NCBI RefSeq assembly: GCF_033971325.1
Contig: NZ_CP117180.1
Location: forward strand, 936,041-1,000,040
DNA length: 64,000 nucleotides
Origin: Hydrogenobacter sp. T-2
GTDB lineage: Bacteria; Aquificota; Aquificia; Aquificales; Aquificaceae
Direction of reading: 5' to 3'
The first letter of the stretch is position 1, and each line of letters starts with the position of its first letter. Below are positions 14,689-42,259 of the stretch, one piece after another. The translations under genes were made by a program, and so were the position numbers. The notes beneath the pieces were generated by a model. The model was given only the letters and a program-made list of their open reading frames with translations. It ran no database searches and was not told the origin of the DNA.

Positions 14689-14938
14689 TAAAGAGCTTGT
14701 GTGTTTAAGAACATTCGGAAAATAATCTTTGGGGAAAAACCGTCTCTTAGGTCTGAGGTGTAATCTTTGTTTATTTTTAACAAAACGGTTCCATTATTTG
14801 TTTAAATTTAACAAACGGGCGGTTCCTGCATTTTCTATGGTAATAGAAGTTAGATTTTTACATTTTTGTTAACAGATTTTAAATATTGGCACTGAAAAAA
14901 TCTTGAAAAGCAAAAGAAATCCCTACGCTCTATATAAA
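14689..14938. other. 250-bp divergent control region between two sigma-54 promoters
   Basis: No gene. It separates the leftward ureohydrolase promoter from the rightward urtA promoter. It contains three dyads rich in GTT/AAC: TTGTT-N7-AACAA at 14767-14783, the perfect TTTGTT-N7-AACAAA at 14797-14815, and TTTTAC-N6-GTTAAC at 14856-14873, plus CGGTTCC repeated near 14785-14792 and 14821-14826. These are plausible sites for a shared activator serving both directions. I looked for guanidine riboswitch motifs and saw none. Confidence 0.55.
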
Positions 14939-14955
14939 TGGCATGTTTTTTGCAT
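14939..14955 (+). promoter_or_regulatory. Sigma-54 promoter of urtABCDE-ureA
   Basis: TGGCATGTTTTTTGCAT with GG (14940-14941) and GC (14952-14953) 10 bases apart. Transcription should start near 14965, followed by an AAAGGAGG ribosome site and ATG 14993. Confidence 0.9.
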
Positions 14956-14992
14956 ACTGAGAGAGCGTAAGCAAAACAAAGGAGGTAAAAGC

Positions 14993-16216
14993 ATGGACAC
15001 GAACATGTTAAGCAGGAGGAAGTTTATTTTTGGGCTTGGGAGCGCAGCAGCTGTTCTCAGTACCGTTACTGTTATTCCAAGTGGGGTCTTGGCGTCATCT
15101 AAAACAGTGAGGGTAGGTGTGCTCCACTCGCTTTCTGGAACCATGGCGATTAGCGAAATAGACGTCAGAAACGCCACGCTATTAGCTATTGAAGAGATAA
15201 ACAACAGTGGAGGCGTTATGGGACATACTATCCGAGCCATAGTTGAAGATGGTGCTTCAAATCCTGCTACTTTTGCACAAAAAGCGGAGAAACTTATACT
15301 TCGTGACAAGGTAGCCACGGTTTTTGGTGGTTGGACATCTGCAAGCAGAAAAGCCATGCTACCCGTATTTGAAAGATTGAAGAACCTCCTATGGTATCCA
15401 GTGCAGTTTGAAGGTAATGAATGTTCTGCTAACATAATATATACGGGTGCACAACCAAACCAGCAAATTCTTCCAGCTTTGGAATGGGCTTTTGCTCAAG
15501 GTTATAGAAAAATCTTTCTTGTTGGTTCCGATTATGTTTTTCCAAGAACTGCTAATCTTATACTAAAAAGACATATACAAAGTAAAGGTGGAACGGTATC
15601 TGGTGAGGAGTATGTACCGTTAGGCGGTACGGATTTTAGTTCTGTAGTAAATAAGATAAGAGCAGCTAAGCCAGACATAGTTTTCAACACCATAAATGGC
15701 GATTCCAACGTGGCTTTCTTTAAGCAAATGCAAGCTGCTGGTTTGGGTCCCAAGGTTTTACCTGTTATATCTTTTAGCATAGCGGAAGTTGAAGCTAAAG
15801 CCATAGGGGTTCCTCTCTTAGAGGGAAGTCTGGCAGCATGGAATTACTTCATGAGCCTTAACAATAGGGAAAATGCTAGATTCATAAGTGCCTACAGGAG
15901 AAAGTACGGTAGAGATGCTCTTATAACAGACCCTATGGCACATGGATATATAAACGTGTACCTATGGAAACAAGCAGTTGAAAGAGCAGGAAGCTTCGAG
16001 CCAGACAAAGTTAGAAAGGCTTTGGTGGAACTTCCCTGGATGGACAGCATATTAGGCAAGATAAAAGTTGCTAACAATCAAAGTCTGTATCAGACAGCAT
16101 ATATTGGAAGACTGCGTAGTGATGGACAATTTGAGATTATATGGTCTTCTGATAAACCAATAGCTCCAGAGCCATACGATCCTCTGGCTTTCCCAGGGAA
16201 AAAGTGCGTTTTATAG
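14993..16216 (+). CDS. urtA: Urea ABC transporter substrate-binding protein
   Basis: 407 residues. The periplasmic urea receptor of the branched-chain-amino-acid-type importer UrtABCDE. The N-terminus MDTNMLSRRKFIFGLGSA looks like a twin-arginine export signal (SRRKF). The mature domain has VGVLHSLSGTMAISE, LLAIEEINNSGGVMG, and GGWTSASRKAMLPVFE-type ligand-pocket motifs of UrtA. The start is set by GGAGGTAAAAGC directly upstream and by the promoter at 14939; earlier in-frame start codons lie above the promoter. It is first of six genes ending in ureA. Confidence 0.94.
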   Translation: MDTNMLSRRKFIFGLGSAAAVLSTVTVIPSGVLASSKTVRVGVLHSLSGTMAISEIDVRNATLLAIEEINNSGGVMGHTIRAIVEDGASNPATFAQKAEKLILRDKVATVFGGWTSASRKAMLPVFERLKNLLWYPVQFEGNECSANIIYTGAQPNQQILPALEWAFAQGYRKIFLVGSDYVFPRTANLILKRHIQSKGGTVSGEEYVPLGGTDFSSVVNKIRAAKPDIVFNTINGDSNVAFFKQMQAAGLGPKVLPVISFSIAEVEAKAIGVPLLEGSLAAWNYFMSLNNRENARFISAYRRKYGRDALITDPMAHGYINVYLWKQAVERAGSFEPDKVRKALVELPWMDSILGKIKVANNQSLYQTAYIGRLRSDGQFEIIWSSDKPIAPEPYDPLAFPGKKCVL

Positions 16217-16231
16217 GAGGGAGTGAAGCCT

Positions 16232-17113
16232 ATGGATTTCGGCTTTTTCATAAACCAACTTTTTAATGGGATAAGCATTTCTTCCATACTATTTATGACT
16301 GCTGTAGGTTTGGCCTTGTCCTTTGGATATATGAGGATAATAAATATGGCTCACGGTGAGTTTTTGATGCTTGGAGGGTATTCAACATATTTAGTGCAGA
16401 AGTTTTATCCTTCTGAGGCTTATCCCATTTTTGCCCTCCTTTTCTCTTTTATATTTCTCTCAATATTTGGCTTTTTTTTATGGGCTTTGGTTATAAAGCA
16501 TGTTCAGAGTAGACCTTTGGACACTCTTCTTCTAACCTGGGGTGTGAGTATTATTCTTCAACAGTTAGCAAGGGATATTTTTGGCTCCACTGGTGTTAGT
16601 GTAGTACCCCCTTCCTGGCTTTCAATAACTATAACGTTTGGGGAGCTAAAAATCCCCTCTGTTAGACTTTTCATAATATTTGTAATGATGCTTAGCATCT
16701 TAGCACTCTACTTGCTTTTTTTCAAGTCTGATCTCGGGCTCAGATTAAGAGCTACAAGCAAGGATAGAGAGACAGCTTCCTCTTTGGGTGTAAACAGCGA
16801 AGCTGTCAATGCATTCGTATTTGCTATCGGTGCTGGTATGGCGGGGGTTGCAGGATCCGCATTAGCTTTAATCTCTTCTGTTACTCCAACAATAGGGCTT
16901 AGTTATATAGTAGATTCTTTCATGGTTGTTATTTTTGGTGGAGTAGGAAGTCTTCTGGGCACTCTAATTAGTTCCCTCATAATAGGGACAATATCCGCAT
17001 TAACTGGTAGCTTTATGGAGATAAGCCTTGCTAAAGCACTTATATTGATATTAGTAGTCATTTTTATGCAATTTAAGCCTACTGGACTTGTATCTATTAA
17101 AGTAAGGGAGTAA
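16232..17113 (+). CDS. urtB: Urea ABC transporter permease (LivH type)
   Basis: 293 residues with about eight membrane segments. FGYMRIINMAHGEFLMLGGY and FMVVIFGGVGSLLGTLISS are conserved in LivH/UrtB permeases. It pairs with UrtC to form the channel. ATG 16232 is preferred because GGAGGGAG stands 8 bp upstream; a GTG at 16223 would sit inside that site. It lies 15 bp after urtA. Confidence 0.93.
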   Translation: MDFGFFINQLFNGISISSILFMTAVGLALSFGYMRIINMAHGEFLMLGGYSTYLVQKFYPSEAYPIFALLFSFIFLSIFGFFLWALVIKHVQSRPLDTLLLTWGVSIILQQLARDIFGSTGVSVVPPSWLSITITFGELKIPSVRLFIIFVMMLSILALYLLFFKSDLGLRLRATSKDRETASSLGVNSEAVNAFVFAIGAGMAGVAGSALALISSVTPTIGLSYIVDSFMVVIFGGVGSLLGTLISSLIIGTISALTGSFMEISLAKALILILVVIFMQFKPTGLVSIKVRE

Positions 17114-17120
17114 TGAAGCT

Positions 17121-18140
17121 ATGAGGTTGGTAAGAAGTAATAAAATGATACTGATCCTGATGATCTTAATTTTAGTTGTAGTCCCTTTTATCCCAGACTA
17201 CTATGTTAATCTCTTAGGAAGATTCTTTTCTCTAGCCATCGCTTGTATAGGTATAGCATGGATATGGGGACATATGGGTGTTTTATCTCTCGGTCAAGGA
17301 CTTTTCTTTGGTCTTGGTGCTTATTCAATTGCCATGCATTTAAAGCTAAAAAGCACAGCGGAGGGTGATATACCTGACTTTATGTTATGGAGCGGCTTAG
17401 ACACAATACCTATCTGGTGGCTGCCATTTAATAGTTTCTTATTCACGTTATTCTCTATAGCTTTTATACCAGCTTTTGTGGCTTTTGCGTTATCTTTTCT
17501 TCTTTTCAGGAGAAGCATATCTGGAGTTTATTTCACTCTAATAACTCAGGCATTAGTGTTAATTTTTGAAACTTTACTTATAAGTTTCCAACCATACACT
17601 GGTGGTTTCAATGGAATTACTGGTTTTAGTAATTTTCTCCTTTGGAATTTAGGGGACTTAGATTTTCAGCGGTCGTTACTTTTTATAGTGATAATTATAA
17701 GTTTCTCCCTCATTATATTTTCTAACCTTTTAAGAAGGTCAAAACTCGGAAAGATAGTTGTTAGCATAAGAGAAAATGAGAGAAGACTCGTATTTCTTGG
17801 ATACAATACTGTGGAAATAAAGATTGCCATTTTCACCTTTGCTTCTATCTTAGCAGGTTTAGGTGGTGCATTTTATACTTTATTTAACGGTGGCATATCC
17901 CCAGCCATAGTTGGTGTGATACCTTCAATAGAATTGGTTCTGTGGGTCGCTATAGCTGGGAGAGAAAACTTTTTAGCGGTGGTTGCTTCTGTTGTGATTA
18001 CAAACCTGGTTAAGGATCAGATAAGCACACTCTTTCCTACATTTTGGTCCTATGTGATGGGTACTCTTTATGTAATAGTAGGTATAGGGCTTTTAGCTAC
18101 TTTTGTGGCAAGATTTTACAGTCGAGGTGTATACAGATGA
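17121..18140 (+). CDS. urtC: Urea ABC transporter permease (LivM type)
   Basis: 339 residues, the second permease of the urea importer, with around eight to ten membrane segments. GVLSLGQGLFFGLGAYSIAM and NGGISPAIVGVIPSIELVLW are typical of UrtC, and the former is the family's N-terminal fingerprint. ENERRLVFLGYN forms the coupling loop to the ATPases. It is 7 bp after urtB and overlaps urtD by 4 bp (ATGA). Confidence 0.93.
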   Translation: MRLVRSNKMILILMILILVVVPFIPDYYVNLLGRFFSLAIACIGIAWIWGHMGVLSLGQGLFFGLGAYSIAMHLKLKSTAEGDIPDFMLWSGLDTIPIWWLPFNSFLFTLFSIAFIPAFVAFALSFLLFRRSISGVYFTLITQALVLIFETLLISFQPYTGGFNGITGFSNFLLWNLGDLDFQRSLLFIVIIISFSLIIFSNLLRRSKLGKIVVSIRENERRLVFLGYNTVEIKIAIFTFASILAGLGGAFYTLFNGGISPAIVGVIPSIELVLWVAIAGRENFLAVVASVVITNLVKDQISTLFPTFWSYVMGTLYVIVGIGLLATFVARFYSRGVYR

Positions 18141-18895
18141 GCTATCTTTTGGAGGTAAAAAACATTACAGTTAGGTATGGTGATTTCTTAGCCCTTGACG
18201 GAGTGGTTTTACACTTAGAGAATAATGAGGTTAGAATAATACTTGGACCTAACGGTGCTGGTAAAACAACTCTGCTTGACGCTATAGCAGGGTCTGTTTC
18301 AGTAAGCTCTGGGAAGATAATATACAAAGGTAAAGATATAACATCCCTTAGTGTAAATCAGAGGGCCCGACTTGGCATATTGAAAAAGTTTCAAACACCA
18401 AATGTATTAGATTATTTGACAGTTTTAGAAAATCTTGTAATTTCTTCCTTAGAAGCTAAAGACTTGAAAGCATTGATAATTAATAAAAAAGGGATAACTA
18501 ACAAAAAACAAGATAGAATTTATGAAATTCTCCATAGGATAGGTTTGAAGGATAAAAAAGATCAGCAAGCGAGAAATCTATCTCATGGTGAAAGACAATG
18601 GCTTGAGTTAGGAATTATTTTAGCTTCAGGAGGTGAATTGGTTCTTCTTGACGAACCTGCCATAGGTCTTAGCACTTTAGAGATGTTCAAGCTAATAGGT
18701 ATAATAGAAGAAATTTCCAAGCAATCCGCAGTCATAATAGTAGACCATAACATGGATTTTGTGAGAGAACTTTGTATAAGATTAGACTCAAAGGTTACTT
18801 TTATGCACATGGGTAGGGTAATCAAGTCAGACACCTTTGAAAACATAAAGAAAGACACAAATATTAAAAAAATTTACTTAGGAGAGGTTGTCTGA
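18137..18895 (+). CDS. urtD: Urea ABC transporter ATPase (LivG type)
   Basis: 252 residues. LGPNGAGKTTLLDAI (Walker A), RNLSHGERQWLELGIIL (signature, with the SHGxxQWLE form characteristic of UrtD), LVLLDEPAIGLS (Walker B) and VDHNMDFV (H-loop). The start ATG 18137 overlaps the urtC stop; a longer reading upstream is out of step with the operon. It works as a heterodimer with UrtE. Confidence 0.94.
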   Translation: MSYLLEVKNITVRYGDFLALDGVVLHLENNEVRIILGPNGAGKTTLLDAIAGSVSVSSGKIIYKGKDITSLSVNQRARLGILKKFQTPNVLDYLTVLENLVISSLEAKDLKALIINKKGITNKKQDRIYEILHRIGLKDKKDQQARNLSHGERQWLELGIILASGGELVLLDEPAIGLSTLEMFKLIGIIEEISKQSAVIIVDHNMDFVRELCIRLDSKVTFMHMGRVIKSDTFENIKKDTNIKKIYLGEVV

Positions 18896-19611
18896 TGTTG
18901 AGTATTCAGTCTATTTCATCAGGCTACGGGCAGACGCTAATCCTAAAGGATATTGAAATATCTCTGAGTTCATCTGAATACTTACTTATAACAGGTAGAA
19001 ATGGAGTAGGCAAGACCACACTAATGAGAACTATAATGGGACTGAACAAGGTAATGAGCGGTAAAATAATGTTTAACTCAGTAGACATAACATTTTATAA
19101 ACCTCATGAAAGAGCGCTTATGGGCTTAGGCTACGTGCCACAGGGTAGAAGGCTATTTCCATACTTGACGGTTCAGGAAAATCTGCTGGTTTCCAGATCA
19201 ACTTTCATGAACAGAAGGAGCAGAATATTCGTTAGTTTTGAAGACATGCTTGACTTCATATACGGTTTATTTCCTATTTTGATTAAATTACTTAAGAAAA
19301 CTGCGGGCTCTCTTTCGGGTGGTGAGCAACAAATTGTTGCTATAGCAAGAGCGTTAGCTACTGGTCCATCCCTTATTCTTCTTGATGAACCATTTGAGGG
19401 TATACAGCCTTCAATAGTGGAAGATATAATAAGGGCTCTTGATGGAATCAAGAAAAAACTTATGATTTCTGTAATTTTGGTTGAACACAAGATACAGAAC
19501 GCATGGGATTTGGTTGACAAAGTTTGTGTTATTGATAACGGTAGAAAAGTTTTTGAAAATTATAAGCAAAATACCACTATGCAGAACGTTCTAGAATTAA
19601 TATCTATATAG
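18895..19611 (+). CDS. urtE: Urea ABC transporter ATPase (LivF type)
   Basis: 238 residues. ITGRNGVGKTTLMRTI (Walker A), GYVPQGRRLFPYLTVQENL (Q-loop, with the QGR form of LivF/UrtE), GSLSGGEQQIVAIARAL (signature), LILLDEPFEGIQPS (Walker B, EGIQPS being typical of UrtE) and VEHKIQ. Its ATG shares one base with the urtD stop. ureA follows after 12 bp. Confidence 0.94.
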   Translation: MLSIQSISSGYGQTLILKDIEISLSSSEYLLITGRNGVGKTTLMRTIMGLNKVMSGKIMFNSVDITFYKPHERALMGLGYVPQGRRLFPYLTVQENLLVSRSTFMNRRSRIFVSFEDMLDFIYGLFPILIKLLKKTAGSLSGGEQQIVAIARALATGPSLILLDEPFEGIQPSIVEDIIRALDGIKKKLMISVILVEHKIQNAWDLVDKVCVIDNGRKVFENYKQNTTMQNVLELISI

Positions 19612-19623
19612 GAGGTTTTAGCT

Positions 19624-19929
19624 ATGCGTTTAACTCAGAGAGAAATTGAAAAAATGTTTATCTACGTTGCAGCAGATATAGCTAAGAAAAGGCGTGAGAG
19701 AGGTTTAAAGTTAAACTACGTTGAAGCGGTTGCAATTATAACAGCAGAAATACTTGAGGGCATTAGGGAAGGTAAGACTGTAGCTGAACTAATGGATATG
19801 GGAACTAAGATACTTACAAGAGAAGACGTTATGGATGGTGTGCCTGAGATGATAGATATGGTTCAGGTAGAAGGCACATTTCCCGATGGTACAAAACTCG
19901 TTACAATACACAATCCTATAAGGTATTAG
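19624..19929 (+). CDS. ureA: Urease gamma subunit, separated from ureBC
   Basis: 101 residues, normal for Ure[60 protein letters not shown] and TIHNP are family signatures. It completes the urease heterotrimer with UreB and UreC, but is encoded 14 kb away as last gene of the urea transporter operon. Ribosome site GGAGGTTTTAGC precedes the ATG. It shares sigma-54 control with ureBC through a separate promoter of the same type, which may keep the subunits balanced. Confidence 0.95.
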
Positions 19930-20036: not shown

Positions 20037-20065
20037 TTGACAACTAATGAAAATTCGTTTATATT
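20037..20065 (+). promoter_or_regulatory. Sigma-70 promoter of the nickel uptake operon
   Basis: TTGACA (20037-20042) and TATATT (20060-20065) with the ideal 17-bp spacer. The start of transcription near 20072 lies below the ATG at 20047, so translation must begin at GTG 20098. Confidence 0.85.
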
Positions 20066-20086
20066 ACTTTATAGAAAAAAGTAATA
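20062..20086. promoter_or_regulatory. Candidate NikR operator
   Basis: TATTAC-N13-GTAATA (within 9-bp perfect arms TATTACTTT/AAAGTAATA), overlapping the -10 box and start point. NikR sites in delta-proteobacteria are described as GTGTTAC-N13/14-GTAACAC and in Helicobacter as TATTATT-N11-AATAATA, so arms and spacing fit. Binding here would block transcription when nickel is plentiful. An identical dyad lies at 29104-29128. Confidence 0.7.
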
Positions 20087-20097
20087 CGGAGGAGTGC

Positions 20098-20778
20098 GTG
20101 CTCTTATTGTTGCTAATCTTACTGCTCTATACAGCTCAAGCTCATGAGCTGTGGATTGAAAAGGAGGGAAACCTTTTTATCCTTCTATACGGGCATATAA
20201 AACCAAATAGAGGAGAAGAGGCTACGGTCAGATACTTGCCAGAGCAGGTTCTTAGCTTTGAGTGTTTGGATGCGGAGGGTAATAGGCTCAAGGCTGAGCT
20301 TATAAAGAGCTATCCTCTCAAACTAAGGGGTAGTTGCCATATGGTTCAAGCGGTTTTCTCTTCTGGCTATTGGACAAAGACGCCTGATGGTCTTAAAAAC
20401 CTACCGAAGGACCAGGTAAAAAACCCAATAGAGAGCTGGTATTCTGTGGAAATTGCAAGAAGGATAAATGCATGGAAACCAAGAAGAGAGCCTCTAAGCA
20501 ATGATCTGGAAATTATCCCTGTAGAAAGCCCTTCAAGCCTAAGGGTTGGTGAGAAGTTTACGGTTATAGCTTATTACAAAGGAAAGCCCCTTAGAGATGC
20601 ACCTGTATACCACAATCGCAGGATAGTTGGCTCTACAGACGAAGAGGGAAGGATAAACCTAAGGGTTAGAGAAAAAGGTATTCAATTAGTGGGGGTCACT
20701 GTAAGGGAAAAGGATAGCACTGGAAAGGCAGATTATGTGCTTAAGACCTTTTATCTGATATTTGAGGTGGAGAGATGA
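20098..20778 (+). CDS. NikK-like periplasmic DUF4198 protein
   Basis: 226 residues starting at GTG 20098, after CGGAGGAGTGC. The signal peptide VLLLLLILLLYTAQA is followed at once by HELWIEKEGN, giving a mature N-terminus with an early His as in nickel-binding DUF4198/NikK proteins. The C-terminal part (LRVGEKFTVIAYYKGKPL, NRRIVGSTDEEGRINL) looks like an Ig-like fold. It is first in the nickel operon and overlaps the next gene by 4 bp. Family members accompany NikM/NikQ/NikO importers and are thought to capture Ni2+ in the periplasm. Confidence 0.75.
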   Translation: MLLLLLILLLYTAQAHELWIEKEGNLFILLYGHIKPNRGEEATVRYLPEQVLSFECLDAEGNRLKAELIKSYPLKLRGSCHMVQAVFSSGYWTKTPDGLKNLPKDQVKNPIESWYSVEIARRINAWKPRREPLSNDLEIIPVESPSSLRVGEKFTVIAYYKGKPLRDAPVYHNRRIVGSTDEEGRINLRVREKGIQLVGVTVREKDSTGKADYVLKTFYLIFEVER

Positions 20779-21188
20779 TCGTGATTTTGATTTTTCTTTT
20801 AGTTTCCCTTTCCTTTTCTCATGAGCTTTTAGAGGAGGTCCGTCAGGAAGGCAACTGCACCCTTGTGCATTTTTACTTCCAAGATGGAAGTGCCTTTTCC
20901 TACGAGGAATACGAGGTTTACAGAGAGGGCGAGAAAGCTCCCTTTCAAAAGGGCAGAAGTGATGCCCTTGGGAGAGTAGTTTTCTGCCCTGACAGAGACG
21001 GTCTTTGGTTTTTGAGGATACGCTCTCAGGATGGGCATGGTGCAGAGCTCAGGCTCAATCTAAAGGCTGGCAAGGTGGAAAAAAAACGCAGCAAGTTTGA
21101 AAGCTATCAAAGGGTTCTTTCTGGTCTTGGCTATCTTCTCGGCATCTTTGGTCTTATTAGCCTGTTTTCAAGGAGGTGGAAAAGATGA
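20775..21188 (+). CDS. NikL-like small periplasmic nickel-transport component
   Basis: 137 residues: a signal-like N-terminus (VILIFLLVSLSFSHELLEE), an early His after it, a soluble beta-rich middle (EVYREGEKAPFQKGRSDALG) and one C-terminal membrane helix (LGYLLGIFGLISLF) with a basic tail. This is the layout of NikL, which replaces NikN in some nickel ECF-type importers. ATGA overlap with the upstream gene. No NikN-like small membrane protein is found in the operon, supporting the NikL role. Confidence 0.65.
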   Translation: MIVILIFLLVSLSFSHELLEEVRQEGNCTLVHFYFQDGSAFSYEEYEVYREGEKAPFQKGRSDALGRVVFCPDRDGLWFLRIRSQDGHGAELRLNLKAGKVEKKRSKFESYQRVLSGLGYLLGIFGLISLFSRRWKR

Positions 21189-22180
21189 GAAGGTTAACCT
21201 TTGCATTACTAACCCTTTCGGGCTTAACCTTTGCCCATCATGGTGTCGCCTCTCTTGGTGCGGTCGGTCTTGAAGGACCCGGTGCACCCCTTGAAAGCTC
21301 AAGCTCCGCCACACTACCAGAAGGTTCATGGCTCTTTTATACCAAGTTAGACAGCGTAAAGTGGAAAAAATACAGCTTTTCGGAATTTCCAGACCAAAAG
21401 GACAGGTCAGACTTTTGGATGTTCGGAGTTGGATACGGTTTTAAGCCTTGGCTTTCTCTGTATCTTTTTGTTCCCTACAATGTAAAGAAGGAGCTAAGGG
21501 ATGGTGGTGAAAAGAGCTTTACCAGTAGAGGTTTTGCGGATGTCTCTTTGATGGCAGTTCTTGGCTTTAAATATGACAGAGGTCTTAGGCTACTTCCAAA
21601 GAAGGAAAGCCTTGAGGATATGATGGACTGGCACTTTACCCTTTATGGTGGCATTAGCCTACCCACTGGCAACGCTAACAAGAAAGGCTATCAAGGAGAG
21701 TTTGCACCAGATATGGCTTTGGGCTTTGGAAAGCCCACTTTAACAGCAGGCTTCACAGCCACAAAGCAGTTTGTAAATCTCCCTGAGCTTACCTTTACCC
21801 TTGACACAAGCTATCTGAAGTTTTTTGAGCATAAATACAACACAGGGGACAAGTATAAGTTTGGTGATGAGGTAAGGGTAAACACCGCCCTGAGTTATAG
21901 AGTTTTCAAGGATGTGCAAAGGTCTCTGAGGTTTGACCTTCTTACGGAGCTTAATTACCTTCACCTTCAGAAAGATAAGGAAAATGGTCTTAAGTTGAAT
22001 GACTCTGGTGGCGATATACTCTACGGAGTTCTTGGTGGAAGGATGTATTACAAAAGGGCTTCCCTTGGAGCTGGTGTGAAGTTCCCCCTATGGAAAGACC
22101 TAAACCAGCAGAGCCAACAGCAGGGTGCGGAAGGCAAGGAAAAATATAGGCTCATCATGACCTTTTCTCTCATGTTTTAG
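21185..22180 (+). CDS. Outer-membrane beta-barrel protein of the nickel operon
   Basis: 331 residues. The signal peptide LTFALLTLSGLTFAHHG leaves a mature end starting with two His. The body is beta-barrel-like with a C-terminal aromatic (MTFSLMF). I do not recognise a specific family beyond transporter-like or MetA-pathway-type barrels. ATG 21185 follows AGGAGGTG; a GTG at 21176 lies inside that site. Its place between nikL and nikM suggests an outer-membrane nickel channel. If so, this would be a TonB-independent route; that is inference. Confidence 0.65.
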   Translation: MRRLTFALLTLSGLTFAHHGVASLGAVGLEGPGAPLESSSSATLPEGSWLFYTKLDSVKWKKYSFSEFPDQKDRSDFWMFGVGYGFKPWLSLYLFVPYNVKKELRDGGEKSFTSRGFADVSLMAVLGFKYDRGLRLLPKKESLEDMMDWHFTLYGGISLPTGNANKKGYQGEFAPDMALGFGKPTLTAGFTATKQFVNLPELTFTLDTSYLKFFEHKYNTGDKYKFGDEVRVNTALSYRVFKDVQRSLRFDLLTELNYLHLQKDKENGLKLNDSGGDILYGVLGGRMYYKRASLGAGVKFPLWKDLNQQSQQQGAEGKEKYRLIMTFSLMF

Positions 22181-22182
22181 CC

Positions 22183-22818
22183 ATGCATGTCCCGGATGGA
22201 TTTATTGCACCTCAGGTTTTTTTGCCAGCGTATGGACTGGTTATAGGTCTTGCCCTCTATGGTTTTAAAAGGTTTAAGGAAAACCTAAATGAGAGAAGCA
22301 TTCCCTACTTGGCAACCCTTTCCGCCTATGCCTTTGTCCTCAGCTCCCTTTCTTTGCCACTTCCCGGTGGCACATCCGTGCATGGGATGGGTTTTGCACC
22401 CCTTTCTATACTTTTTGGTCCATGGACAGCCTATCTGTGTATGTGTCTCGTTTTCTTACTTCAGGCGGTATTATTAGGTCATGGAGGGATAACCACATAC
22501 TCGGTGAACGCCCTCGCCATTGGCTTTGTAGGGAGCTTTTGTGCCTATGGGGTTTATAGCCTTTTAACAAAAAGAAAGTATGCTACTTTCCTCTCTGGCT
22601 TTATATCCACCCTTGCGTCCGCCCTTTTTATGTCTGTTGTTCTTGGTATACATCCCTATCTTTTCACAGATGTGGACGGAAAAGCTCTTTATTTCCCCTA
22701 TCCTCTCAGCATTACAATTCCTCTTCTTTTAACTTCCCATATACCAGTTGCCCTTGTGGAGGGACTTTTAACTCAAGCGATAGTGAGCTTTGTAAGGAGG
22801 AGGGGTTTTGAAGGATAG
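22183..22818 (+). CDS. nikM: Nickel ECF-type transporter substrate-binding membrane protein
   Basis: 211 residues, CbiM/NikM family. It begins MHVPDGF: the free N-terminus and His2 that coordinate the metal in this family are exposed without a signal peptide. SVHGMGFAPLSILFGPW carries the second metal-site His. There are six to seven membrane segments. It starts 2 bp after the barrel gene and overlaps nikQ by 11 bp. The neighbouring nikR, urease and hydrogenases argue for nickel over cobalt. Confidence 0.9.
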   Translation: MHVPDGFIAPQVFLPAYGLVIGLALYGFKRFKENLNERSIPYLATLSAYAFVLSSLSLPLPGGTSVHGMGFAPLSILFGPWTAYLCMCLVFLLQAVLLGHGGITTYSVNALAIGFVGSFCAYGVYSLLTKRKYATFLSGFISTLASALFMSVVLGIHPYLFTDVDGKALYFPYPLSITIPLLLTSHIPVALVEGLLTQAIVSFVRRRGFEG

Positions 22819-23353
22819 ATTTCTCCTGTTGCTTTACATGCTGGCACTTGTTCTTTTGGCTTCTCTCTCTTCTATAAAATACTTGCTCTTATTCCTTTTT
22901 CTTCTTCTTCTTGCTAACGCAATATCCCTGAGGGGTAATTTCAGAAGGGCTATTAGACCTCCTCTCTTTGCCCTTTTTACTGCCTTTTTTATATCAACGC
23001 CCTATGCCCTCTGGACTGGACACTATTCCTATGCTCTTCTCCTTACCTTACGCGTGCTTAACCTTACGCTTCTTACTCTTCTTGTTTTGAGAAATATAAA
23101 CCTCTACTTGGCATTTGGCTTTTCAAAAACCCTTTCACAGCTTCTTGTCCTCACGTCAAGCCATATACTCCTTTACAGAAGGGTTTTTTCTGAGTTTAAG
23201 GATTCCTTAAGGAGCAGAAGCCCAGAGGGTCCACAAAGAAGGGATATGATAAACTTCTCTGGAGGTATAGGGCTTTACTTCTTTGATAGGGCTCTTAGGG
23301 ATTCTGAAGAAGTGGCAAAAGCTATGAAATCAAGGGGGTTTTATATTGATTGA
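22808..23353 (+). CDS. nikQ: Nickel ECF-type transporter permease component
   Basis: 181 residues, CbiQ/EcfT-like. Four to five membrane segments are followed by the cytoplasmic coupling helix SRSPEGPQRRDM and a C-terminal EEVAKAMKSRGF, whose Ala-Arg-Gly-type motif docks the ATPase. Starts at TTG 22808 within nikM and overlaps nikO by 8 bp. Shorter than typical CbiQ (about 225-250), so the N-terminal region is reduced. Confidence 0.82.
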   Translation: MKDRFLLLLYMLALVLLASLSSIKYLLLFLFLLLLANAISLRGNFRRAIRPPLFALFTAFFISTPYALWTGHYSYALLLTLRVLNLTLLTLLVLRNINLYLAFGFSKTLSQLLVLTSSHILLYRRVFSEFKDSLRSRSPEGPQRRDMINFSGGIGLYFFDRALRDSEEVAKAMKSRGFYID

Positions 23354-24110
23354 ACTTATAGATGTTTACTACTACTATGAAAACTACACAGCTCTAAGAG
23401 GCATAAGCCTGAAGATAGAAGAAGGAGAAAGGGTAGTTCTGCTTGGTATAAACGGCTCTGGCAAGAGCACACTTCTTAAAATCCTAAACGCCTTAATCTT
23501 TCCACAAAAGGGTTCATACCTTTATCGTGGCAAAAGGGTTGAAGAAAAGAGGCTAAAAGAAAGGGATTTTAGAAGAACCTTCAGAAGGGAAGTGGTTCTT
23601 CTCTTTCAAAACCCAGAGGTTATGATATTTAATCCTACAGTTTATGATGAGCTTGCCTTTTCTCTGAGACAGCTGGGGTTGGAGGAAAAGGTTATAAGGG
23701 ACAAGGTTCTATACTGGGCGGAGAAGTTTGGACTTACTCCCTACTTGCAAAGACCACCCTTTGAGCTGAGCACTGGTATAAAACAAAAGCTGTGCCTTGC
23801 TTGCCTTCTTGTGCTTGAGCCAAAGGTTCTTCTTCTTGATGAGCCTACCGCACATCTTGACCCAAAAACAACAGGATGGTTTGTAGACCTTCTTTGGGAG
23901 CTCTCTTGCACCACGGTGGTTTCCACGCATAACCTAAGCCTTGCAAATGAATTGGGCAGTAGATTGTTAGTCTTGGGAGAGGAGCATACTTTAGTCTACG
24001 ATGGTAAGATAGAAGAGTTTTTCAAAGATAAGGAGAACCTCATAAGGGCAGGTCTTTTGCATAGGCATAAGCACAGGAGCACTGGAGACTGGCATCTTCA
24101 CAGCCTTTGA
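23346..24110 (+). CDS. nikO: Nickel ECF-type transporter ATPase
   Basis: 254 residues, CbiO/NikO family. LLGINGSGKSTLLKIL (Walker A), LLFQNPEVMIFNPTVYDELA (Q-loop with the ECF-type NP motif), FELSTGIKQKLCLACLL (signature, with ST in place of SG), VLLLDEPTAHLD (Walker B) and VSTHN (H-loop). It starts at TTG 23346 inside nikQ. It ends with the His-rich stretch HRHKHRSTGDWHLHS, which could bind nickel. Confidence 0.9.
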   Translation: MIELIDVYYYYENYTALRGISLKIEEGERVVLLGINGSGKSTLLKILNALIFPQKGSYLYRGKRVEEKRLKERDFRRTFRREVVLLFQNPEVMIFNPTVYDELAFSLRQLGLEEKVIRDKVLYWAEKFGLTPYLQRPPFELSTGIKQKLCLACLLVLEPKVLLLDEPTAHLDPKTTGWFVDLLWELSCTTVVSTHNLSLANELGSRLLVLGEEHTLVYDGKIEEFFKDKENLIRAGLLHRHKHRSTGDWHLHSL

Positions 24111-24124
24111 TAAAATTTTAGAAA

Positions 24125-24535
24125 ATGGAAAAGAGTGTAAGATTTTGTGTATCTTTGCATGAGGGCCTTCTTGAGGAGCTTGACAAAAGAGTGATAAGGA
24201 GGGGTTATGCGTCAAGGTCCGAGCTCGTTAGAGACCTCATAAGAGACCTACTATCCCAAGAAAAATGGGAAGAAAACCAAGAAGTTATCGGTGTCCTGAG
24301 CATAATATACGACCATCACGACAAAGAGTTAGTTTACAGGCTTCTTGACCTTCAACACAAGCATCATGTTAATGTTCTCTGCTCCACTCATCTTCACCTT
24401 GACCATCATAACTGCCTTGAGGTAATAGTCTTAAGGGGTATGGCTGAGGAACTTGAGAGCCTTGCAAACCAAATAGGTGGTCTAAGAGGCGTAAAACTCT
24501 CTAAGCTAAGCAGAGTTTACCTTCCTGAGTTGTAA
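24125..24535 (+). CDS. nikR: Nickel-responsive regulator
   Basis: 136 residues. The N-terminal ribbon-helix-helix DNA-binding domain (SVRFCVSLHEGLLEELDKRV, YASRSELVRDLIRD) is followed by an ACT-like nickel-binding domain with YDHHDKELVYRLLDLQHKHH and STHLHLDHHNCLEVIVLRG, containing the conserved His/Cys square-planar site. With nickel it binds dyads and represses uptake genes. Candidate targets here are the dyads at 20062-20086 and 29104-29128. It is 14 bp behind nikO; its 3' end overlaps arsC (convergent) by 30 bp. Confidence 0.95.
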   Translation: MEKSVRFCVSLHEGLLEELDKRVIRRGYASRSELVRDLIRDLLSQEKWEENQEVIGVLSIIYDHHDKELVYRLLDLQHKHHVNVLCSTHLHLDHHNCLEVIVLRGMAEELESLANQIGGLRGVKLSKLSRVYLPEL

Positions 24536-24986: not shown

Positions 24987-25409
24987 ATGATAGGCTATAA
25001 AGAGGCTTATTACTTAGCCTTGAAGAAGATAGGAGAGAATCTCCCTAAGTGTTTTGGTGAAAATCTCCTTTCCCTTGTGGTTTTTGGTTCTGTAGCAAAA
25101 GAGACCTTTTCTCCAGAGTCAGACATTGACCTACTTGTTATCCTTGGAGACTTTAAGAGTAAAAGGGAAGAGTATGTGCGTTTGTTTGAATGCCTTGAGG
25201 AAGTAAAAAGGGTAAACCCCATAATCCTTAAGAAGGAACAACTAAGAGAATCCTTATGGTTTCTATGGGATTGTAAGTTTATCATTTTGTATGACAAAGA
25301 GGGTTTCTTTGACAGTTTTGTGGAGAGGCTCAAGGAGTTTCTTCGTAAAAATGTGGTGAAGGTGGAAGGCAGGATGCCCTATTACGAGGTTATAAATGGT
25401 AAACCCTGA
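24987..25409 (+). CDS. MNT-type nucleotidyltransferase domain protein
   Basis: 140 residues, polymerase-beta-like nucleotidyltransferase. VVFGSVAKETFSPESDIDLLVIL contains the GSxA-x(n)-SDxDL motif with the two metal-binding Asp. Such proteins often act as antitoxins, AMPylating a HEPN toxin, but no HEPN gene is next to it. It lies between 19-bp direct repeats and appears inserted between arsC and the TetR gene. No ribosome site is visible. Function unknown beyond the domain. Confidence 0.75.
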   Translation: MIGYKEAYYLALKKIGENLPKCFGENLLSLVVFGSVAKETFSPESDIDLLVILGDFKSKREEYVRLFECLEEVKRVNPIILKKEQLRESLWFLWDCKFIILYDKEGFFDSFVERLKEFLRKNVVKVEGRMPYYEVINGKP

Positions 25410-25416
25410 ACTTGAA

Positions 25417-25435
25417 GATGTTAAGATTTTATTAA
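25417..25435 (+). repeat. 19-bp direct repeat, copy 2
   Basis: GATGTTAAGATTTTATTAA, identical to 24967-24985, immediately above ATG 25438 of the TetR gene. Confidence 0.8.
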
Positions 25436-25437
25436 AG

Positions 25438-26031
25438 ATGAAAAGGCAAGGCATTAAGGAAAGAAAAAGGCTTGAGATAATCAGGACCGCTTGCAGGTTG
25501 TTTTCCGAAAAGGGATACTATAACACCACCATGCCGGATATAGCACAAGCAGTGGGCATGAGCGTTGGAAACCTCTACAACTACTTTGAATCTAAGGAGG
25601 AGCTGGCAAAGGAAATAATGATGACCGTCTCTGATTGGGTGGGTGAGAAGCTCAGGAAAATAAACGAGATGGAAGTTAACATGCATGAGAAGGTAAGGAT
25701 GTTTGTTAGGAGTTTTTTTGAGATAGCCATTGAAGAGCCTGAGCTTATAAGCTACTTCCTTAGAGTTTATCTGGTAAACAGAGAAGTTTTCAGCGATGGA
25801 TGTGAGGGTTTTGCCTGCGTTGCAAGTGTGATAACGGAGGTTATGGTTTTCCTAAGCGATGGGATAGAAAAGGGAGAGTTTAGAAATCAGAGCTTTTATC
25901 CAGCATTTACTATCATAATGGGAACTCTTGGTGGTATGGTCTTTCTCCATAAAGAAGGGCTTCTTGATAAGCATCTAATGGATTACATAGAAGAGGTCTC
26001 GGAGAACATATGGAGGGCGTTAAGGGCTTAA
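25438..26031 (+). CDS. TetR-family transcriptional regulator
   Basis: 197 residues from ATG 25438. The N-terminal helix-turn-helix is clear: IIRTACRLFSEKGYYNTTMP, DIAQAVGMSVGNLYNYFESK, EELAKEI. The C-terminal ligand domain is unrecognised. An ATG at 25396 after GAGGT is the alternative start and would add 14 residues; I prefer 25438 because the 19-bp repeat shows the same upstream sequence before both genes. It faces hypX with a 12-bp overlap. It is the only local regulator that could bind the dyad TGAATGANNATTCAG found at three hydrogenase promoters, so it probably represses hydrogenase genes. Confidence 0.85.
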   Translation: MKRQGIKERKRLEIIRTACRLFSEKGYYNTTMPDIAQAVGMSVGNLYNYFESKEELAKEIMMTVSDWVGEKLRKINEMEVNMHEKVRMFVRSFFEIAIEEPELISYFLRVYLVNREVFSDGCEGFACVASVITEVMVFLSDGIEKGEFRNQSFYPAFTIIMGTLGGMVFLHKEGLLDKHLMDYIEEVSENIWRALRA

Positions 26032-27705
26032 CCTTCTATGGAGGGCCAGGTAAGGTGGTGTCCTGAAGGGTAAAAACCTTCTAACAAAATAGTAGCGAGC
26101 TATGTGATAGCTTGTATCAAAGCCGTAGAAGTTAAGCCTCATATTTTCAAGCTCCTCTTCTCTGTAAGACCTTAAGGGTTTTTTGCTCCAGTCTTTGAGC
26201 CTTTCTTCTTTTTTTCTCATTATAAAGTTCTCAAACTCCGCCGAGTCTACAAAGTCTTGTAGGAAGGCTTTGATTTTTTCCAGAAAGTCCTCAGGAGAAT
26301 TACCTAAAACTCCGTCTATCAATCCAAGCCTGAAAGCCTTTTCAGAGCTTATGGGCATTCGGTTTTCCATTATTTCCTTTCCCTTTTCCCAGCCTACTCT
26401 TTTGGGAAGTGTGTAGGTCCAGAACTCAGAGCCATAAAGGTTTCCTATATTCTTGTAGTGTGGGTTAAGCACCACTCCTTTTCTCGCAAAAACAAGGTCG
26501 CAACAAAGGGCAAAGAAAACACCGCCAGCTCCTGCATTGCCTCTTATGCCTGCCACAGTTAACTTATCAAGTGTTGTAAGTATCTCTTCGCATAGGTCAT
26601 CTATGGCGTTTATGTTTCTCCAAGACTCATCCGCTGGGCTTTCGGACGCTTCTATGGTATTTAGGTTCATGCCGTTGGAAAAGAAATCCTCACCACCAAG
26701 AAGGACTATAGCTTTTACGGGTCTTTTCTTTGCGTATTTTATAACATCAAGCAGTCTTTCACACTGCTGGGTAGACATGGCTCCATTGTAGAACTCAAAG
26801 TCTATGTATGCTATGTTTTTGTGTTCTGTGTAAACTATCTCTCTGTAAGTGGGAAAGTCTACCGTCTCCCAAGGTTTTAGAGGCTCTTCTCTTAAACCTT
26901 CAATTAAGACCTCGGGTAAAACTCTTACTGCTGGTAGCTTTATTCCATATCTTCCCTTTTCCCTGAGATGACCTATCCAAACAGCACCGTCCGTAGTCGC
27001 TATACACACCGCCTCGTCCCTTTTAGCTATCAATTCACCCGGTTTACCCCTGAGATATCCTTCAGGAAAGGCATTAAAGAGATAGTATTCTTTTCCCCCT
27101 ATAGAGGCGAGTGCACCGGGCTGACCATCGCCTGAGTAGACCTTTTTAAGCACATCCTCTGTGCGGTCTGTCTGCCAGTTAATAGCCCTTAGCCTCTTAT
27201 CCACAGTGGGTCTAAAGCGTCCATTTTCTTGCGGTTTTACTTCCACCCTTCCCCTTTCAAGGCTTTCCATTACTTCCCACAAGCACTCAACAGCACCTTC
27301 AGTTACCTCTCTCCTGTATATGCTTGACTTTTTTGCCCTTCGCATGGGAAAGGTTCTGTATGCCCATACATCTCCCGCATCGTATTCCTCCACAGCGGAA
27401 AGCATACATACACCCCATTCCTTTTCCTCTTCAAGGATAGCCCAGTCAAGGGCATTGGGACCCCTGTCGCCTGGAGGTCCGGGATGGACAACCAAGGTTA
27501 TGTAATTTTCCCAGATAGCTCTTGGTATCTTTCTCTTTAAGAAGGGTGCTATAATTAGGTCAGGCTTGAAGATGCTTACCGCTTCCACCATAAGGTTTGG
27601 GTGAACATCCAGCTCTATAGAGACTTCATGACCAGCTTCAGAAAGCTCGCAATAGAACCTCTGGGAAAGGGAATTGAACCTATGGCAGAACATAAGAACC
27701 CTCAT
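26020..27705 (-). CDS. hypX: Hydrogenase maturation protein HypX (CO-ligand synthesis)
   Basis: 561 residues, two-domain. The N-terminal half is formyltransferase-like (MRVLMFCHRFNSLSQRFYCE, LVVHPGPPGDRGPNALDW with the HxGPxG region). The C-terminal half is enoyl-CoA-hydratase-like (AIVLLGGEDFFSNGMNLN, GNAGAGGVFFALCCD). HypX makes the CO ligand of the [NiFe] active site from formyl-tetrahydrofolate through formyl-CoA and is typical of organisms maturing hydrogenase in air. ATG 27705 overlaps the hypD stop as ATGA. It is last of hypC-hypD-hypX. Confidence 0.93.
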   Translation of the reverse strand: MRVLMFCHRFNSLSQRFYCELSEAGHEVSIELDVHPNLMVEAVSIFKPDLIIAPFLKRKIPRAIWENYITLVVHPGPPGDRGPNALDWAILEEEKEWGVCMLSAVEEYDAGDVWAYRTFPMRRAKKSSIYRREVTEGAVECLWEVMESLERGRVEVKPQENGRFRPTVDKRLRAINWQTDRTEDVLKKVYSGDGQPGALASIGGKEYYLFNAFPEGYLRGKPGELIAKRDEAVCIATTDGAVWIGHLREKGRYGIKLPAVRVLPEVLIEGLREEPLKPWETVDFPTYREIVYTEHKNIAYIDFEFYNGAMSTQQCERLLDVIKYAKKRPVKAIVLLGGEDFFSNGMNLNTIEASESPADESWRNINAIDDLCEEILTTLDKLTVAGIRGNAGAGGVFFALCCDLVFARKGVVLNPHYKNIGNLYGSEFWTYTLPKRVGWEKGKEIMENRMPISSEKAFRLGLIDGVLGNSPEDFLEKIKAFLQDFVDSAEFENFIMRKKEERLKDWSKKPLRSYREEELENMRLNFYGFDTSYHIARYYFVRRFLPFRTPPYLALHRRLSP

Positions 27706-28823
27706 CCCTGCCACCTATATTTATAGTAGGCATTACAGGCACCTTCAGAGGAGACCATGCAGGAGCCTATCGGGTTTGATGGCGTGCAGACACTGGCAAA
27801 GAGCTTGCAATCCTTAGGCTGTGCAACACCTCTTATAATCTTACCGCATATACAAGCTGGATGCTCCTTTGGTCTTGGCAGGCTGATTGAAAACCTTCTT
27901 TCGGCGTCAAAGTCCGCAAACCTTGAATTTATCTTAAGAGAGCTGTAAGGTATAATGCCAAGACCACGCCATTCAAATTCCTTTCTTAGCTCAAAAACTT
28001 CAGCAACCAGTCTCTGAGCCTTGAGGTTTCCTTCTCTACTTACCGCCCTCGCATACTGGTTTTCTACCAGAGCCTTTTTCTCAGATATCTGTCTAACTAT
28101 CATATAGACCGCTTGCATAAGGTCAAGAGGCTCAAAGCCAGAAATCACCACAGGCTTTAAAAACTCCTCCGCGAAGTATTCGTAAGGCTTAGTCCCTATT
28201 ATGACGCTCACATGCCCAGGACCTATAAAGGCGTCTATTTCCACTTTTCCATACTCTCTAACTTCTGGTGCGTTGAGAATATGCTGTATTGCTGCAGGTG
28301 TGATAACGTGGTTTGAAACCACAGAGAGGTTTCTTATTCCCATCTCCTTAGCCTTTTTTATAAGCACTGCGGTTTGTGGAGTGGTGGTTTCAAAGCCTAT
28401 GGCAAAAAAGACCACTTCCTTTGTCGGGTTTTCTTGGGCTATCTTTATGGTGTCAAGGCACGAATAGAGCATTCTAACATCCCTTCCCTCCGCCCTCAGG
28501 TCAAGGAGGCTTTTCCTGTTTGAGCCTGGGACTCTCAGCACATCTCCATAGGTGCAAAGTATAACCTTTTCTTGGCTTGCCAACTCAAGGGCAAGGTCAA
28601 CCCTCTGCATAGGCAGGACACACACGGGACAACCCGGACCGTGAACAAAACGAACATAACCCTCAAGGAGCTGGTCTACGCCGTGCTTTAGTATGGTATG
28701 AGTGTGTCCTCCGCAAAACTCCATTATCCTTATGACCTTGCCCAGCCTTTCCACAGATGCCTTTATGGCTCTCTCAAGCCTTTTTATAGCATCCGCCTCT
28801 CTAAAGCTAACTGTAAGCCTCAT
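27702..28823 (-). CDS. hypD: Hydrogenase maturation iron-sulfur protein HypD
   Basis: 373 residues. MEFCGGHTHTILKHG, FVHGPGCPVCVLP, and the C-terminal CICGKIIRGVAQPKDC with its [4Fe-4S] cysteines are present. With HypC it forms the scaffold on which the Fe(CN)2CO unit is built. ATG 28823 is preferred over codons further upstream: it follows GGAGGAGGAAG and overlaps hypC by 17 bp. Confidence 0.95.
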   Translation of the reverse strand: MRLTVSFREADAIKRLERAIKASVERLGKVIRIMEFCGGHTHTILKHGVDQLLEGYVRFVHGPGCPVCVLPMQRVDLALELASQEKVILCTYGDVLRVPGSNRKSLLDLRAEGRDVRMLYSCLDTIKIAQENPTKEVVFFAIGFETTTPQTAVLIKKAKEMGIRNLSVVSNHVITPAAIQHILNAPEVREYGKVEIDAFIGPGHVSVIIGTKPYEYFAEEFLKPVVISGFEPLDLMQAVYMIVRQISEKKALVENQYARAVSREGNLKAQRLVAEVFELRKEFEWRGLGIIPYSSLKINSRFADFDAERRFSISLPRPKEHPACICGKIIRGVAQPKDCKLFASVCTPSNPIGSCMVSSEGACNAYYKYRWQG

Positions 28824-29046
28824 CTTCCTCCTCCAGAATCTGCTCAAAGAGCTTGAGGCTTTCAAGGGCGTAGTCTTCCTCTAACTTCTGGATGGCAAAA
28901 CCCACATGAACAAGAACCCAATCTCCAATGGCTACCTCATCCTGAAGAAGCTCAAGGGATACAAGCCTTTTTGCTCCAAAGGTTTCTACCACCGCAGTAT
29001 TATCTTCCCTTATCTCAACGACCTTTGAAGGCACAGCAAGACACAT
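28807..29046 (-). CDS. hypC: Hydrogenase maturation chaperone HypC
   Basis: 79 residues starting MCLAVPSKVVEI; the N-terminal Cys2 that binds iron is intact. It shuttles the iron unit between HypD and the hydrogenase large-subunit precursor. ATG 29046 follows AGGAGGTAGAC. An in-frame ATG at 29067 falls inside the operator-like dyad and is rejected. First gene of the leftward hypC-hypD-hypX unit, with a TATATT -10 at 29072-29077. Confidence 0.95.
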   Translation of the reverse strand: MCLAVPSKVVEIREDNTAVVETFGAKRLVSLELLQDEVAIGDWVLVHVGFAIQKLEEDYALESLKLFEQILEEEDEAYS

Positions 29047-29056
29047 GTCTACCTCC

Positions 29057-29070
29057 TGAATGTTCATTCA
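29057..29070 (-). promoter_or_regulatory. Candidate TetR operator at the hypC promoter
   Basis: Read leftward TGAATGAACATTCA followed by G, 1 bp below the TATATT -10 (29072-29077). It matches the sites at 29200-29213 and 42246-42259 except at two central bases. Confidence 0.65.
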
Positions 29071-29103: not shown

Positions 29104-29128
29104 TATTACCCTTTTCTAAAAAGTAATA
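29104..29128. promoter_or_regulatory. Second NikR-type dyad, between hypC and hydrogenase genes
   Basis: TATTAC-N13-GTAATA, the same arms and spacer as the nickel-operon site at 20062-20086; the inner AAAAAGTAATA half is also shared. It is centred about 50 bp above the hypC start point and about 90 bp above that of the hydrogenase small-subunit gene. This position would suit activation rather than blocking. Confidence 0.65.
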
Positions 29129-29168
29129 AAAATTAGCCTTGCTTATAAGGTTCATAAGGAAATTTTAG

Positions 29169-29197
29169 TTGACAGTGAATATGATTGAAAATATACT
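29169..29197 (+). promoter_or_regulatory. Sigma-70 promoter of the group-1 hydrogenase operon
   Basis: TTGACA (29169-29174), 17-bp spacer, TATACT (29192-29197). The operator-like dyad begins 2 bp after the -10. Confidence 0.88.
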
Positions 29198-29199
29198 TT

Positions 29200-29213
29200 T
29201 GAATGAATATTCA
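29200..29213 (+). promoter_or_regulatory. Candidate TetR operator at the hydrogenase promoter
   Basis: TGAATGAATATTCA followed by G, covering the expected transcription start. It matches the hypC and hypB sites and the general form of TetR-type operators such as TGAATGAATATTCATTCA. Confidence 0.65.
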
Positions 29214-29228: not shown

Positions 29229-30296
29229 ATGGAGACCTTCTGGGAAACCTTTAAGCGACATGGCGTCAATAGGCGGGACTTTTTAAAGTTTGCCACCACC
29301 ATAACAGGGATTATGGGGCTTTCACCTTCCATGATTCCTGAGGTGGTTAGAGCCTTAGAGACAAAGCCCAGGATTCCCGTTATCTGGATACATGGTCTTG
29401 AGTGCACTTGCTGTTCAGAGTCCTTTATAAGGTCTGCAACTCCTCTTGCCTCCGATGTGGTGCTAACCATGATATCGCTTGAATACGACGATACCCTCTC
29501 AGCAGCTGCAGGGGAAGATTTAGAAAAACATAGAAAAGAGATCATCAAGAAATACTGGGGCAATTACATCTTAGCAGTGGAAGGGAACCCACCCCTTGGC
29601 GAGGATGGTATGTATTGTATTGTTAACGGCGAGCCATTTTTGAAGCACCTCAAGGAGTCCGCAGAAGGTGCAAAGGCGGTTATAGCTTGGGGTTCTTGTG
29701 CCAGTTGGGGATGCGTGCAGGCCGCAAAGCCAAACCCAACCACTGCAGTTCCTATAGATAAGGTTATAAAGGACAAGCCCATAATAAAAGTTCCTGGTTG
29801 TCCACCAATAGCGGAGGTCATGACGGGAGTTATAATGCACCTTGTTCTCTTTGATGCCCTTCCTCCCCTTGACTCTCAAGGAAGACCAAAGCAGTTTTAT
29901 GGCAACAGAATTCACGATACATGCTACAGAAGAGCCTTTTTCAACGCGGGTCAGTTTGTAGAAAGGTTTGACGACGAGGGTGCAAAGAAGGGATGGTGCC
30001 TTTATAAGGTGGGTTGTAGGGGTCCGACTACCTACAACTCCTGCGGAAACATTCGTTGGTATAACGGGCTTTCCTATCCTATACAGGCAGGTCATGGTTG
30101 TATAGGCTGTTCGGAGGACAAATTCTGGGACAATGGACCCTTCTACCAAAGGCTTACCACCATACCAGTCCCCAATGTGGAGGCAAATGCAGACAAGGTG
30201 GGTATGGCGGTTGCGGCTGCAGCGGCGGCTGGTGCGGTAGCCCATGGCGTTATATCAAAGCTGAGGTCAAAACCTAACAAAAAAGGAGGTGAATAA
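29229..30296 (+). CDS. [NiFe]-hydrogenase small subunit, O2-tolerant group 1 type
   Basis: 355 residues. The Tat signal [18 protein letters not shown] directs export. The proximal cluster region reads [11 protein letters not shown] and later [13 protein letters not shown]: both supernumerary Cys of the [4Fe-3S] cluster are present (equivalents of Cys19 and Cys120 in E. coli Hyd-1), the hallmark of O2-tolerant membrane hydrogenases. [19 protein letters not shown] and [16 protein letters not shown] carry medial/distal cluster ligands. The C-terminal Ala-rich helix ([14 protein letters not shown]) anchors it to the membrane. ATG 29229 follows AGGAGGTGTAAT; upstream in-frame codons lie in the promoter. 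Confidence 0.95.
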
Positions 30297-42235: not shown

Positions 42236-42245
42236 GATTTCCTCC

Positions 42246-42259
42246 TGAATGGTCATTCA
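42246..42259 (-). promoter_or_regulatory. Candidate TetR operator at the hypB promoter
   Basis: Read leftward TGAATGACCATTCA followed by G, 3 bp below the -10. Third member of the TGAATGANNATTCAG set. Confidence 0.65.

Follow-up and report, generated by a model that had tools for sequence, protein, structure and literature searches.

Autoregulation of a nickel importer by NikR is a known kind of circuit, and the closest described systems are compared here. In delta-proteobacteria, NikR has been predicted to control nikKLMQO-type transporters, with the consensus GTGTTAC-N13/14-GTAACAC (PMC545781). In H. pylori, the NikR consensus is TRTTA-N15-TAWTA, and direct activation by NikR has been questioned even there (PMC5385501). 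Control of Ni-Fe hydrogenase by NikR has also been predicted previously (stated in PMC2667541). The window that we analyzed, a stretch of 64,000 nucleotides from Hydrogenobacter sp. T-2, resembles the delta-proteobacterial system in combining NikR, a putative nikK/L/M/Q/O set and an inverted repeat at the transporter promoter (27-28 bp with an N13/14 spacer in that system), and in that NikR is predicted to act on one hydrogenase operon in addition. It differs in its arms (TATTAC here, GTGTTAC there) and in the extra target, which is a [NiFe] hydrogenase together with hypC here and an iron-only hydrogenase there; the available part of the delta-proteobacterial account also does not mention a second, TetR-type operator, unlike what we describe below (PMC545781). 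The H. pylori consensus contains TATTA-N15-TAATA, and NikR is likewise tied to a nickel enzyme in that species (PMC5385501). That enzyme is urease, whereas the enzyme-side site here lies at hydrogenase and hyp genes, and the urease genes of our window, which carry no perfect dyad, were set aside as NikR targets. The importer control predicted here would be nickel-responsive and act through a promoter dyad, as that of E. coli NikR at nikABCDE does, but the operator there is GTATGA-N16-TCATAC and the importer is NikABCDE (PMC7055735). Among the matches listed in our search of the open-licence literature, none described NikR sites in Aquificales or a regulon of hydrogenase and nickel genes under a TetR-type regulator, which is weak evidence of absence. 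What the locus would add to the known circuit is a testable two-input promoter, with nickel sufficiency as one input and the other common to hydrogenase and its maturation genes, as well as a candidate NikR site between hypC and hydrogenase and a named candidate for the hydrogenase regulator. The matching of metal import to metalloenzyme demand thus becomes testable with two proteins and three promoters.

The nik operon lies on the + strand and begins with a nikK-like gene (DUF4198; 20098..20778, PF10670 match) and a nikL-like gene (20775..21188) whose match to the NikL family NF058648 falls below the cut-off. These are followed by a gene for a Phenol_MetA_deg-family protein (21176..22180, PF13557), which we infer to be an outer-membrane barrel, and by nikM (CbiM family; 22183..22818, PF01891), a gene in the nikQ position (22808..23353) and nikO (ABC/ECF ATPase; 23346..24110, domain and family matches). 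In the NikKLMQO set expected of a nickel ECF transporter, K, M and O were therefore matched, L reached only a below-cut-off match, and Q was assigned by position alone, with neither Pfam nor NCBIfam yielding a match. The original prediction had placed nikR last in the operon, and the open reading frames and domain matches agree: nikR (24125..24535), with an RHH domain (PF01402) and NikR_C (PF08753) above their cut-offs, ends the run. The encoded protein scores above the cut-off for four of five NikR models, with TIGR02793 below it. Among solved structures it is nearest to H. pylori NikR, and the alignment of the two keeps the metal-site His/His/His/Cys set (QH, THxH, NC), which we take to be the residues that bind nickel.

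Upstream of this run we located a sigma-70-type promoter (20037..20065, + strand), with a -35 element TTGACA at 20037-20042, a spacer of 17 nucleotides and a -10 element TATATT at 20060-20065. It had been called perfect, which is correct for the -35 element and the spacing; read directly, the -10 element agrees with TATAAT at 5/6 positions. This promoter scored 11/12 in a scan of 19.5-30 kb, the top value there, which no site other than the hydrogenase promoter equals. In all, 13 sites were found versus 14.6 in shuffles, so the hexamers by themselves are little proof, and a similar promoter layout was seen by eye at nik in most relatives. The predicted dyad TATTAC-N13-GTAATA is present by direct reading at 20062..20086 (no strand), where it overlaps the -10 element and reaches from approximately -11 to approximately +14 relative to the expected transcription start (~20072). 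It fits the published form of NikR operators, namely an inverted repeat with an N13/14 spacer and arms of 6-7 bp in the promoter of nickel genes (PMC545781, PMC5385501). The proposed start of the nikK-like gene at GTG 20098 is likewise supported. GGAGG (20088-20092) precedes the GTG codon (20098-20100), both by direct reading, the relative G007 has ATG at the equivalent position, and the in-frame upstream ATG (20047) falls between the -35 and -10 elements.

We then compared nik promoters in a set of 61 genomes (the genome studied here and 60 relatives), of which 21 match NikR and 19 match nikK. Eighteen genomes were scored, as G032, with a single weak nikK match (E 4e-4), was left out; 7 of the 21 NikR-positive genomes have no nikK match and fall outside this comparison. 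With TATTAC arms and an N13 spacer, the dyad at the nik promoter scored 12/12 in eight of the 14 NikR-positive genomes, 11 in three and 10 in three, versus 9, 8, 7 and 7 of 12 in the four NikR-negative genomes. A score of at least 10 was thus reached in 14/14 versus 0/4 genomes (Fisher exact p = 3.3e-4, a value that ignores relatedness and uses a cut chosen after the scores were seen). Because the genomes are related, these counts are not independent. The presence of the dyad at the promoter tracks nikR in 18/18 genomes, and over the 14 nik dyads the arms are 95% conserved compared to 66% for the spacer. In G034 the dyad is kept at a nik run that has no terminal nikR; nikR lies on another contig. 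We also observed that both arms of the nik dyad carry the same C-to-A change in G050 and G056 (L249 and L250; TATTAA-N13-TTAATA), which perhaps reflects an altered NikR specificity in that genus.

Perfect copies of the dyad are rare. Within the window, two matches to TATTAC-N10-16-GTAATA were found and none in 100 dinucleotide shuffles, and the genome of 1,692,950 bases holds exactly two perfect TATTAC-N13-GTAATA sites, both at nickel genes, where base composition predicts ~0.3. Allowing one mismatch gave seven dyads in the genome versus 0 for a reversed control; the five inexact copies were rejected as extra regulon members, since all lie inside open reading frames. Dyads with up to three mismatches are not enriched in the window (46 found versus 36 expected). 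A urease alpha gene, a run of urea-type ABC transporter genes (identified by eye) and a urease gamma gene share the window, at 3836-5539 and 14903-19929. When six NikR-positive members of the genus were searched whole (G000, G004, G007, G009, G011 and G013), we found nine perfect dyads, eight of which lie at nik or hydrogenase; all nine come from four of these genomes, with none in G004 or G009. The third perfect dyad of G007 (L133, G007:C1:755042) was discarded as a target: it is part of a long hairpin-like palindrome, and no open reading frame of at least 90 amino acids starts within 200 nt. Among the matches listed, four NikR-negative genomes also show one perfect dyad each (G016:C1:358715, G018:C1:934664, G026:C6:27744 and G032:C4:5050), and in G034 there is an additional copy at some distance from nik. 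A looser scan of 80 named NikR loci (L020-L099) gave matches in 27. One of these loci, L021, encodes a NikR 76% identical to that of the window in a record titled 'Acidobacteria bacterium J001', which is probably mislabelled.

We propose that nickel-loaded NikR bound at 20062-20086 would block RNA polymerase at the -10 element and start point, so that sufficient nickel would turn the nikKL-MQO-nikR operon off. We base this on the position of the dyad, on its tracking with nikR and on published NikR operators (PMC545781, PMC5385501). With nikR closing the operon, the loop would be self-limiting. We put the probability that NikR represses nik through this dyad at roughly 0.8. The perfect dyads in some NikR-negative genomes could instead mean that another regulator reads the site, but we consider this very improbable, as the nik dyad follows nikR through all genomes scored, nikR itself sits inside the operon, and the geometry agrees with published NikR sites (PMC545781, PMC5385501). 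The original prediction had described a simple autoregulated nickel-repression loop. Comparison between genomes supports the NikR-type dyad, the nickel operon and autoregulation in this description; 'simple' does not hold, given a second dyad at hypC and hydrogenase and a second operator at the nik promoters of most relatives.

The second perfect dyad (29104..29128, no strand) is intergenic and lies between two divergent promoters. On one side is hypC (28807..29046, - strand), behind which, also on the - strand, come hypD (open reading frame 27702-28865) and a gene at 26020-27714 that, from its domain make-up, we take to be hypX-like. On the other side, the promoter TTGACA-N17-TATACT (29169..29197, + strand) precedes the gene for a [NiFe]-hydrogenase small subunit of the hydA family (29229..30296, + strand, starting at ATG 29229; TIGR00391 above the cut-off) and that for the large subunit (30299-32203, + strand), for which the large-subunit models match below their cut-offs. 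In 20 genomes we scored the 300 nt that precede the match to hydrogenase, leaving out G032 (L187), whose match begins elsewhere than at the start of the gene. The dyad scored 12/12 in G000, G003, G007, G011 and G013, in each case at -125 from the hydrogenase start, and 11/12 in G009, at -124. It is thus kept in six of the seven NikR-positive members of the genus, the exception being G004 with a score of 7. Scores of 7-9/12 were obtained in the 13 others, which comprise two NikR-negative members of the genus as well as seven NikR-positive and four NikR-negative genomes of other genera, so that the hydrogenase-side dyad is present in 0/2 NikR-negative genus members and in 0/7 NikR-positive genomes of other genera. 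A further match of 11/12 in G019, 207 nt upstream of hydrogenase, has looser arms and a 12-nt spacer and was not counted. Over five hydrogenase-side dyads (that of G007, identical to that of G000, was omitted), the arms are 98% conserved versus 75% for the spacer.

These observations suggest that the dyad at 29104-29128 is probably a NikR site as well, a reading of which we are slightly less sure than of the nik loop. If NikR also binds here, nickel status would feed into the production of the nickel enzyme. Alternatively, only the nik loop might be real and the second dyad a relic or a chance occurrence that plays no part in hydrogenase or hyp expression. Its absence in NikR-positive G004 and in all genera tested besides this one would fit such a copy, as would the perfect dyads of some NikR-negative genomes and the number expected by composition alone. 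We nonetheless find this unlikely: the dyad is intergenic, it has been kept in nearly all NikR-positive genus members while the spacers diverged, its distance to the hydrogenase -35 element is fixed at 40 nt in five genomes and 39 in one, and it is absent from the two NikR-negative genus members tested that have this hydrogenase.

The position of this dyad bears on how NikR would act from it. The centre lies at about -88 from the expected start point of hydrogenase and about -51 from that of hypC, upstream of both promoters, where activation fits slightly better than repression. NikR could also repress hydrogenase, hypC or both, for example by covering the -35 region of hypC. By eye, 0-5 nt separate the edge of the dyad from the presumed -35 element of hypC (which is poor in the genome studied here), repression is the best-known role of NikR, and an iron-only hydrogenase isozyme of Desulfovibrio has been predicted to be NikR-repressed (PMC545781). 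Shutoff of a nickel enzyme by nickel-loaded NikR is hard to rationalise, however, and it is the distance to the hydrogenase -35 element that is fixed, whereas that to the TetR-type operator at hypC varies (by-eye counts of 33, 33, 33, 35, 38 and 38 nt). We therefore regard repression from this dyad as possible but doubtful. An inverted repeat CTTAT-N7-ATAAG (29142..29158, no strand) lies upstream of the hydrogenase -35 element and is a possible activator site. Counted without a shuffle control, CTTAT/ATAAG repeats scoring 9-10/10 with 6-7 nt spacing occur in 13 of 19 hydrogenase promoters, including those of NikR-negative G006 and G016.

The other shared element is a putative TetR-type operator, TGAAT-N4-ATTCA. 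In the window (no strand in each case) it is found as TGAATGTTCATTCA at the hypC promoter (29057..29070), as TGAATGAATATTCA where transcription of hydrogenase is expected to start (29200..29213) and as TGAATGGTCATTCA at the start of hypB (42246..42259; hypB open reading frame 41519-42256, - strand). The corresponding position in the nik promoter, CTAATGAAAATTCG (20044..20057), is degenerate, and its score of 7/10 is reached in 63% of shuffles and is thus not above chance. Among 19 hydrogenase promoters of the family, the operator is perfect in 13 and scores 9/10 in six, at most 160 nt from the start (no shuffle control); in most it directly follows the -10 element, and in G021, G022 and G028 it lies elsewhere. 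A candidate reader is the TetR-family regulator encoded at 25396..26031 (+ strand; TetR_N domain, PF00440). All 19 operator-bearing genomes match this protein with at least 62% identity, except that G036 matches in two pieces (59-64%). In all seven f2 genomes, hydrogenase is present, the best operator score is 6-7/10, and there is no match to the TetR-family protein; this scoring leaves out L199 and L200 (G052 and G056), which do not begin at the gene start, and the more distant hydrogenase of G060, all of which also score 6-7/10.

Ten chosen genomes searched whole contain 31 perfect operators versus 19 for the reversed control, and 21 of the 31 are at the starts of hydrogenase, hypC, hypB, hypF or nik, as judged from coordinates or from the gene read downstream (hypF and the hyp genes of relatives were identified by eye); the other 10 are unassigned. 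With one mismatch, the operator is not enriched in the genome studied here (25 sites versus 70 for the reversed control), and the case for it therefore rests on where the sites are located. At 17 scored nik promoters, the operator reads 9-10/10 in 12 and 7-8 in five, the genome studied here being one of the latter with 7, and G004, read separately, has 9/10; the operator lies just upstream of the -10 element and, by eye, in most cases between the -35 and -10 elements. In the NikR-negative genus members G002 and G006 (L245 and L246), nikK is divergent from hydrogenase, and the nik promoter lacks the NikR dyad but keeps the TetR-type operator, which shows that the two elements can occur apart.

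These findings point, with modest confidence, to joint TetR-type control of nickel import and hydrogenase across the order; that the operator still works at nik in the genome studied here, where it is degenerate, we consider tentative, with somewhat less than an even chance. In the circuit that we propose, the regulator encoded at 25396-26031 would recognise TGAAT-N4-ATTCA at hydrogenase and at the maturation genes hypC and hypB, as well as at nik in most relatives, and would hold these genes down until a signal releases it. Because this regulator would be common to hydrogenase/hyp and nik, nickel import and nickel use would be switched together. The broadest version is an order-wide regulon in which nickel import and [NiFe]-hydrogenase stand under the TetR-family regulator; its operator would lie within the nik promoter beside the NikR dyad, with nik as a two-input gate for nickel sufficiency (NikR) and hydrogenase demand (TetR). 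Within the genus, NikR would also have been recruited to hypC and hydrogenase, its nickel-loaded form promoting the enzyme while shutting import. Taken as a whole and drawn from sequence comparison, this version is speculative and rather unlikely to hold in every part.

Lastly, one perfect TGAAT-N4-ATTCA in G029 (L262, G029:C1:480664) lies 12 nt before the candidate start of a CPYCSVSC protein and also within that open frame; by eye, this protein resembles formate dehydrogenase.
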